Below are positions 2,860 through 4,328 of a DNA stretch of 50,767 nucleotides, piece after piece. Below the pieces are notes generated by a model that was given only the letters and a program-made list of their open reading frames with translations, was not told where the DNA came from and did no database searches. The translations under genes and the position numbers were made by a program. Location of the stretch: NCBI GenBank assembly GCA_025360225.1, contig JANYCN010000046.1:1-50767 (forward strand), written 5' to 3'. Every line of letters starts with the position of its first letter. Within the stretch, counting starts at the first letter, position 1. Origin of the DNA: Actinomycetes bacterium (GTDB lineage Bacteria > Actinomycetota > Thermoleophilia > Gaiellales > F1-60-MAGs149).

Positions 2860-3471
2860 TCAGGTCACGAGCGTCGGGATGAAGCGGGTGTCGAGCGCGT
2901 CCGTCTCGTCGATGATCGTGCTCCCCGCCGCGAGCAGTCCGCTCGGAACGTCCGTCCAGCGGCTCTCACCGCCGAACGCGAAGTACGCGTCCCAGACGAC
3001 GTTGCCGGGCTCTCCGATCGAGCCGACGCGCTTGTCGGCCAACCACCGGCCGATCACCCGATCGCCGTCCCAGAGGTTCGTGACGCGCGGGTCGTCGAGG
3101 ACGTGGGTGTCGATGTCGCCTTTCCCATCGCCGTTGAGCATTGGGATCCAGAGCGCGAAGACGCGGAGTCGAGCCGTCGGATGCGCGGCGAGCACGTGTT
3201 GGCGGACCCAACTGGCCCCCAGAAGGCAGGTGCTTCAGGTGGGCGACATCAGGATGATCAGGCGGGGCGTCCCGTCGGCAGCGCTGAACAGGGTCTTCAT
3301 CTGGGCGACGTTGTGGATCGTCTCGATCGTGCCGGAACCGGACGCCGTTGTCGGGCCGGTCGCCGTGACCGTCGGAGGGGCGGAGGGCACCGATGTCCCT
3401 GGCGCCGCCGCCTGCGAGCCGCAGGCGGTCAGTACCGACGCGACGAGAGCTGCTCCGATGATCGATCGCAT
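2860..3471 (-). CDS. Predicted selenocysteine-containing thioredoxin-like lipoprotein (UxxC), in-frame TGA at 3235-3237
   Basis: One continuous minus-strand frame of 203 codons is broken only by TGA at codon 79. Downstream of the TGA the frame goes on at once as STCLLGASWVRQHVLAAH, so the local motif is SPT-U-S-T-C, a UxxC equivalent of the thioredoxin CxxC. The preceding strand LIILMSPT and the following long helix are the usual thioredoxin-fold flanks. The N-terminus is a lipoprotein signal with lipobox LTAC (Cys17) and then an Ala/Thr/Pro-rich linker, so the domain would be anchored outside the membrane. ATG 3471 is preferred over GTG 3480 because AGGGG lies eight bases upstream. It sits directly behind ccdA, whose product could reduce it. 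A SECIS-like hairpin follows the TGA. The alternative is a nonsense mutation at the redox Cys. No sel genes are in the window. Confidence 0.72.
3206..3231 (-). other. SECIS-like hairpin just after the in-frame TGA
   Basis: Starting four bases after the TGA, the mRNA can fold with a lower stem of about five pairs (ACCTG with the TTGGGT side, two of them G-U). An asymmetric pyrimidine-rich internal loop follows, then a perfect upper stem CTGG/CCAG closed by a GGG loop. The loop lies 17-19 bases after the TGA, inside the window reported for bacterial SECIS elements, and begins with G as they usually do. This was folded by eye without energy calculation. In such GC-rich coding DNA, short hairpins also occur by chance. 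Confidence 0.4.
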
Positions 3472-3476
3472 CGCGG

Positions 3477-4328
3477 TCACCCCTGCTCGATGGTTGCCGT
3501 ACCTCGCCGGGAACGTAGCGCGACGGCCCCCGCGACGAGGACGATCGTGGCTGCGACCGTCAGCGTCGGATAGGAGTGCGCTCGCGCGAAGATCCGGACC
3601 TGGCTTGATGAGGTGACCGCGAAACCGACGATCGGATCGTCCGCAACGGTGGCGGTGTCACCGAAACGAAGGCGCGCCCAGTAGTAGGTGAGGTACGCCC
3701 CGGAGGCGATGAGCAACAGGTTGCCGATGCGTGCGGTAAACGCGAGCGAGCGTCGGAAGCCGCGGACGATGCTGGCACGGAGGAGCGCGACGCAGACGGA
3801 GAGCGCGCAGAGCACCAGTGCCATGCCGAACCCGTACGCGACGAACGCCTCGACCTTCGACCCGCCCAGCGCTGTTGCGACGAACGTCAGGAGCAGGGGC
3901 AAAGTGCAACCGAGCGACGCAGCGCCATAGGCAACACCGAAGGCGAGCATCGCCGGCCAGCCGGTCCGCCCGGAGGCTCGGGCCGGGCGCGGCAGACGCG
4001 GAGACAGTGAACGTCCCGCGAGACCCGCTCCACCAACGACGACGAGCGTTCCGCCCGTCGCAAGCCCGAGCCACGGAAGCGCGTGCGACAACGAGCCGAC
4101 GCCGGCCACGACCGGTATCGCCACCAGGGAGAAGAACGCGAGCATCCCGACCGTCACGAGCGCGCCAACCGCGAGACCCTGGAACGCCCTGCTGCGTGCC
4201 TGGGGGAGGTCTCCCTCGTCCGCCGCGAGGTAGAACGACAGGAAAGCAGGCAGCAGCGGGAAGCCGCAGGGGTTCAACACGGTGAGGCCACCCGCAGCGA
4301 TGGCGATCGTGATTGGTACGGCACTCAC
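3477..4328 (-). CDS. ccdA: CcdA/DsbD-type transmembrane electron carrier
   Basis: A 283-residue polytopic membrane protein of the CcdA family, which carries reducing equivalents from cytoplasmic thioredoxin to extracytoplasmic thioredoxin-like proteins. The diagnostic first segment is LTVLNPCGFPLLPAFLSFYL (Cys21); the partner cysteine is in SLGCTLPLLL (Cys141). About six to seven hydrophobic helices are visible, the last one C-terminal. The GTG start at 4328 has GAGGG a few bases upstream. The stop overlaps or abuts the start of the UxxC lipoprotein gene, so the two are very likely co-transcribed and the lipoprotein is the probable electron acceptor. Confidence 0.9.
   Translation of the reverse strand: MSAVPITIAIAAGGLTVLNPCGFPLLPAFLSFYLAADEGDLPQARSRAFQGLAVGALVTVGMLAFFSLVAIPVVAGVGSLSHALPWLGLATGGTLVVVGGAGLAGRSLSPRLPRPARASGRTGWPAMLAFGVAYGAASLGCTLPLLLTFVATALGGSKVEAFVAYGFGMALVLCALSVCVALLRASIVRGFRRSLAFTARIGNLLLIASGAYLTYYWARLRFGDTATVADDPIVGFAVTSSSQVRIFARAHSYPTLTVAATIVLVAGAVALRSRRGTATIEQG

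Follow-up and report, generated by a model that had tools for sequence, protein, structure and literature searches.

The window (the whole stretch of DNA analysed, 50,767 nucleotides) contains a minus-strand frame running from 3471 to 2860, where the sole internal stop read from the translation is a TGA at 3237-3235. This frame reads MRSIIGAALVASVLTAC (lipobox) ... LIILMSPT-TGA-STCLLGASWVR ... FIPTLVT and closes in its own TGA (2860-2862). The codons directly 3' of the internal TGA are AGC ACC TGC, giving a UxxC motif (U-S-T-C) when the TGA is taken as selenocysteine (Sec). The features of the locus are as follows:

2860-3471, minus strand: putative UxxC selenolipoprotein gene, 203 aa when read via the UGA, alternative GTG start at 3480 (translation and 16 intact homologues)
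3235-3237, minus strand: TGA as predicted selenocysteine, residue 79 (TGA at the equivalent column in 17/17 loci)
3226-3237, minus strand: UxxC redox motif U-S-T-C (U and C columns invariant in the family alignment)
3421-3471, minus strand: signal peptide with terminal lipobox L-T-A-C, Cys17 codon at 3421-3423 (read from the translation)
3200-3221, minus strand: SECIS-like hairpin, core 3204-3218 (RNAalifold, pair counts with n=16, single-sequence fold and codon conservation)
3477-4328, minus strand: gene for a CcdA-like membrane protein (motifs NPCG and SLGC), lying upstream of the UxxC gene and in the same direction

Mechanical ORF calling splits the gene into two pieces, 3235-3480 (81 aa) and 2860-3195 (111 aa), as the first-pass annotation had anticipated for automatic pipelines. 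Other claims made there also stood: the translation shows a lone TGA interrupting an otherwise continuous minus-strand frame; the TGA takes the first position of a CxxC in a thioredoxin-like sequence, as seen in U-S-T-C and in the thioredoxin-like model; the N-terminal lipoprotein signal holds for the window gene; and the proposed pairing with CcdA holds there too, through the adjoining gene. The in-frame GTG at 3480 overlaps the stop codon of the ccdA-like gene, whose end lies 5 nt upstream of the ATG, and because of this overlap both genes may be translationally coupled.

Homologues were searched by profile in 396 genomes of the phylum, 129 of the order and 27 and 39 of the classes of two distant members, overlapping sets that together cover around 520 different Actinomycetota genomes. 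A single-protein search, of lower sensitivity than the profile, covered 299 genomes of the class, and GTDB contigs were searched too. The family comprises 16 intact loci and a frameshifted one; the 13 genomes that carry them belong to 7 family-level groups of Actinomycetota. The codon equivalent to U79 is TGA, and TGA only, in the 16 intact loci, which come from independent assemblies; unrelated residues, the outcome that would have spoken against the first-pass proposal, were found in none. The 17th locus (L066:9104-9550, G451:C2) keeps the TGA and has a frameshift just past its SPTUSEC motif, which may mean that the copy is decaying or the assembly wrong, or may have some other cause. The protein 3' of the UGA shares about 56% identity with the three nearest homologues and 31-45% with the others. 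Four different copies were identified in a single genome, G338 (L058, L063, L064 and L065). The weak matches L029-L031 were rejected, the motif being absent and the alignments looking like chance or antisense matches. No homologue with TGC or TGT (Cys) was identified by profile in the approximately 520 Actinomycetota genomes; in plasmids and phages there were no relatives, nor a Cys version. Within the searched Actinomycetota, plasmids and phages the family thus appears to be Sec-only on sequence grounds. Replacement of Sec by Cys in some homologues supports, but does not define, a bacterial selenoprotein, and it would have pointed to an ancestral Cys. That Cys forms appear to be missing is unusual and points to a chemistry poorly served by sulfur.

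An in-frame TGA shared at the equivalent codon by independently assembled homologous frames is very unlikely to be a chance event, and a misreading of TGC or TGT, the error considered in the first-pass annotation, is in effect excluded by the identical TGA in 13 separately assembled genomes. A pseudogene carrying a nonsense mutation, or a sequencing error, with no full-length protein in either case, would look alike as a lone internal stop in a MAG contig, and the relative in G451 is frameshifted, but this reading is in effect refuted by conservation, given the TGA shared by intact homologues, the conserved protein 3' of it, the conserved hairpin and the complete Sec machinery, and its probability is negligible.

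The Sec machinery was identified complete in the source genome (3.24 Mb, 97% complete). It comprises selA (4e-117) and selB (above the curated cut-off, with the SelB winged-helix domain also found) in tandem, a tRNA-Sec with a TCA (UCA) anticodon above the Rfam threshold, and selD (4e-109) with a Cys-type active site, so that all four genes whose presence had been proposed as a check (selA, selB, selC and selD) were found. In the phylum sample selA was present in 8/8 family-positive genomes vs 235/396 overall; this co-occurrence, (235/396)^8 or about 0.015 with kinship ignored, gives modest support to the Sec reading. Insertion of Trp, Gly or Cys at the UGA, as in ordinary decoding, by a changed code or a suppressor would equally leave the frame open, as would any sense reading of TGA, but the window gene and its relatives use TGA as terminal stop, the UCA anticodon belongs to a tRNA-Sec above threshold in a genome with selA, selB and selD, and the UGA site opens a CxxC-type motif; code reassignment was rejected on conservation and is hardly credible.

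A SECIS-like hairpin was identified downstream of the UGA. RNAalifold on the ungapped 45-nt alignment starting at the UGA (n=16) yields one hairpin, GCGCC-AGUUG-GGUGC, with a 5-bp stem and an AGUUG loop beginning 21 nt past the UGA; position 2 of the loop is G, followed mostly by U or G, in keeping with the published bacterial model. The bacterial SECIS model consists of a stem of 4-16 bp and a loop of 3-9 nt with G in the first two positions, located 16-37 nt past the UGA (PMC13188914), and the family hairpin agrees with it, most weakly in L045 and L048, where the outer two stem pairs are broken. The stem columns are paired in 95% of cells vs 24-53% when the partners are slid by 1-3 columns. 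In the window sequence and the three relatives closest to it the second stem pair is G-C instead of C-G, through changes at third codon positions from GGC to GGG (Gly) and from GTG to GTC (Val). This compensatory change is synonymous at both sites, so pairing is preserved and the protein is unaltered; it may be a single event. In the window sequence the stem is lengthened by UGG/CCA (single-sequence fold of 45 nt from the UGA). Single-sequence folds of 64-67 nt gave no signal above shuffles, the hairpin having come from the alignment.

Codon choice around the hairpin is also constrained. All 10 members with Ser in the loop encode it by AGT, a codon that makes up 3.3% of the Ser codons in neighbouring genes taken together; the Ala codon preceding it is GCC in 16/16, and silent-site conservation peaks at the hairpin (codon counts, uncorrected for kinship). 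From the conserved UGA, the Sec genes and the hairpin, we infer incorporation of selenium; the window gene almost certainly encodes a genuine selenoprotein with UGA 3235-3237 as Sec. As a separate observation, the Thr codon before the Sec-UGA (3238-3240 in the window and its equivalents) is ACC in 16/16, above the codon-usage prediction, and a TGA-containing flavoprotein of the MerA superfamily, described below, likewise reads ACC-TGA. An upstream context effect on UGA decoding is possible.

The protein was modelled with AlphaFold2 from the 16-row alignment (pLDDT 96.7, pTM 0.92) and presents a thioredoxin-like fold. In thioredoxin-fold proteins the redox pair usually follows a core strand and opens the next helix, and in the predicted model the Sec (model residue 32) lies between strand 23-28 and helix 33-48. 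Structural matches by Foldseek were thioredoxin-like oxidoreductases that are secreted or tethered (M. tuberculosis 1lu4 and DsbF, ResA, DsbE/CcmG and the C-terminal domain of DsbD) and also glutathione peroxidases, all with TM around 0.5 and identity of 20% or less. A lipobox-like Cys was identified in the Thermoleophilia and some other members, the rest having an apparent signal anchor, so all members are probably membrane-bound and extracytoplasmic, as judged from their N-termini.

No match to Pfam or NCBIfam was obtained by hmmscan for the 16 members at E up to 1, with the exception of Spx at 0.15 (chance), the family belonging to none of the AhpC-TSA, Redoxin or Thioredoxin models, and sequence searches of the PDB gave no relatives. 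The NCBIfam release used includes recent selenoprotein models, of which DF family NF049942 and SaoL NF040728 were matched by other proteins, and the lack of a match for this family is therefore informative. Among the 119 families and subfamilies of prokaryotic selenoproteins compiled in a 2026 review (PMC13188914), the family has no evident counterpart, as compared with those entries that have Pfam or NCBIfam models, in distinction to those given only a cd or PTHR identifier (for example thiol-disulfide isomerase-like and UGC TlpA; cd02966). Within the part covered, the literature on selenoproteins in connection with Thermoleophilia, CcdA or mer operons contained nothing on this protein. The first-pass suggestion of a little-described selenoprotein is supported, and it is extended by the apparently Sec-only character of the family, its spread over several actinobacterial families, the conserved SECIS-like hairpin and, in other lineages, the location in mercury-resistance loci. 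The group is best described as a putative new family inside the known UxxC thioredoxin-like selenoproteins, Sec-only as searched, and a well-supported addition to those catalogued, from a phylum whose genes of this kind are probably still being cut in two or overlooked.

Known UxxC selenoproteins include Trx PF00085, PF13098, DsbG-like NF041057, redoxin PF08534, SaoT NF040730 and others (PMC13188914 Table 1). The family shares with them the Sec in place of the first Cys of CxxC and the thioredoxin-like fold, and differs in being without Pfam or NCBIfam match, Sec-only so far, actinobacterial, anchored and characterized by an SPTUxxCxxGA motif; it matches none of the named UxxC families with models (SaoT, DsbG-like, Trx, redoxin, HUIPC, GOS_C and others). 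Compared with TlpA, ResA and DsbE (CcmG), the predicted protein would have in common the thioredoxin-like fold, the tether outside the membrane, the link to CcdA and the redox pair at a helix start, whereas the selenocysteine, the low TM and identity values given above and the lack of a sequence-profile match set it apart.

The CcdA-like protein encoded in the window had no Pfam match on its own and is 36% identical to the CcdA-like protein of L059, which matches Pfam DsbD_2. A ccdA-like gene adjoins 9 of the 17 loci: the window, L057, L059, L060, L061, L062, L068, L069 and L089. In the other 8 it was absent within the available stretch, L070 starting at a contig edge; these include the four G338 copies, where no CcdA-like neighbour was identified by motif scan. 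Neighbour genes for which no profile match is stated were named by reading their sequences.

The mer context of the family is full in G333 and partial in G628, G338 and G451. In G333 the genes arsR, merB (PF03243, 1.6e-30) and merA (L090 / L061:9109-12174, G333:C57) are followed by the U gene and ccdA, merA being split by a frameshift in the assembly. In G628 the U gene is accompanied by MerB-like, ArsR and CcdA-like genes and by a protein reading like the DF family; near the G338 loci there is either a MerB-like gene or a DF-family protein; and in G451 a DF-like protein (just under the cut-off) lies beside a gene reading as a MerR-type regulator. DF-family proteins are thus neighbours of some family members. 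L067 adjoins a gene reading like HemQ. No mer genes were identified near the window locus. MerA was considered as a partner in the genome of the window and rejected, no match there being above the cut-off.

In Rhodococcus, Streptomyces and Staphylococcus, mer operons on plasmids carry a Cys redoxin paired with CcdA. The family resembles these Gram-positive systems in having an extracytoplasmic thioredoxin-like protein beside CcdA, with some relatives in mer loci, and differs in having Sec where the mer redoxins have Cys; in a profile comparison with the Rhodococcus and Streptomyces Cys redoxins the similarity was not significant, although the motif region aligns. It also resembles the mercury-linked selenoproteins (MerT-like, SaoL, HgcA/HgcB and the DF family) as a Sec protein in a mercury context, but is a separate UxxC family with different motifs.

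CcdA feeds proteins of the ResA/TlpA type. For the present family the flow of electrons and the substrate are inferred, and a function as extracytoplasmic thiol/selenol reductase, taking electrons from the adjoining CcdA-like protein, is favoured with moderate confidence. SelB and tRNA-Sec(UCA) would decode UGA 3235-3237, directed by the hairpin with its loop 21 nt downstream, and the product, with its UxxC active site in a thioredoxin-like domain, would be exported and lipid-anchored. Electrons would pass from cytosolic thioredoxin to the CcdA-like protein, from there to the U-C pair and finally to an extracytoplasmic substrate. Mercury-resistance loci of several lineages would have taken up the CcdA and UxxC pair, or the UxxC protein alone. 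Two uses are conceivable there for the reduced selenol-thiol pair: trapping of Hg(II) or organomercurials on the outer side of the membrane, or regeneration of thiols that Hg has blocked. Taken whole, an explanation comprising a Sec lipoprotein, a UxxC site, a reductase fed by CcdA and mer recruitment in some lineages is likely to be correct. Counting against it are the 8 loci where no CcdA-like gene was seen, the broken outer stem pairs of L045 and L048, the longer single-sequence folds, the possible single origin of the compensatory change, the lack of a Cys homologue, and the lack of mercury genes around the window locus and of a MerA above the cut-off in its genome.

A role mainly in cytochrome c maturation, as an apocytochrome reductase of the ResA/CcsX type working with CcdA and not in metal detoxification, shares the CcdA partner with the favoured reading and would account for the structural matches to ResA and CcmG/DsbE, for a window locus free of mer genes and for the HemQ-like neighbour of L067. 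No ResB/ResC-type genes were seen beside the loci read, however, and several relatives with MerB-, MerA- or ArsR-like genes would be left unexplained, making it a rather unlikely alternative. Selenols bind Hg very tightly, and this, with the mer context in G333, G628 and G338 and the glutathione peroxidases among the structural matches, is consistent with a selenol whose main role is that of a mercury-binding trap like MerP or of a peroxidase. This second alternative is unlikely, as the UxxC pair and the frequent CcdA partner better fit a recycled reductase and the genome of the window has no mer link.

For the CcdA-recycled reductase a wider meaning may tentatively be considered. The Sec-only anchored UxxC protein and CcdA could form a selenium-based extracytoplasmic module whose selenol, in some Actinomycetota, traps or reduces mercury; it would stand where ordinary mer operons have the pair of Cys redoxin and CcdA, or MerP. 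The links to CcdA and to mercury genes make it testable whether bacteria use selenol chemistry against mercury outside the membrane.

A second candidate selenoprotein was identified in the genome of the window (L086:482-1861, minus strand, G000:C76). It belongs to the flavin disulfide reductases (MerA/lipoamide-dehydrogenase superfamily) and has a homologue in another genus of the same family (L087:515-1903, minus strand, G179:C22). In both genera a TGA is conserved at the first active-site Cys (GGT-U-INVGCIPTK), and a strong hairpin, GGCCCU-GGUC-AGGGCC, lies about 33 nt past the UGA. One more sequence matching the MerA model, G259:C124:45-746, contains a single in-frame TGA and possibly belongs to the same flavoprotein family.
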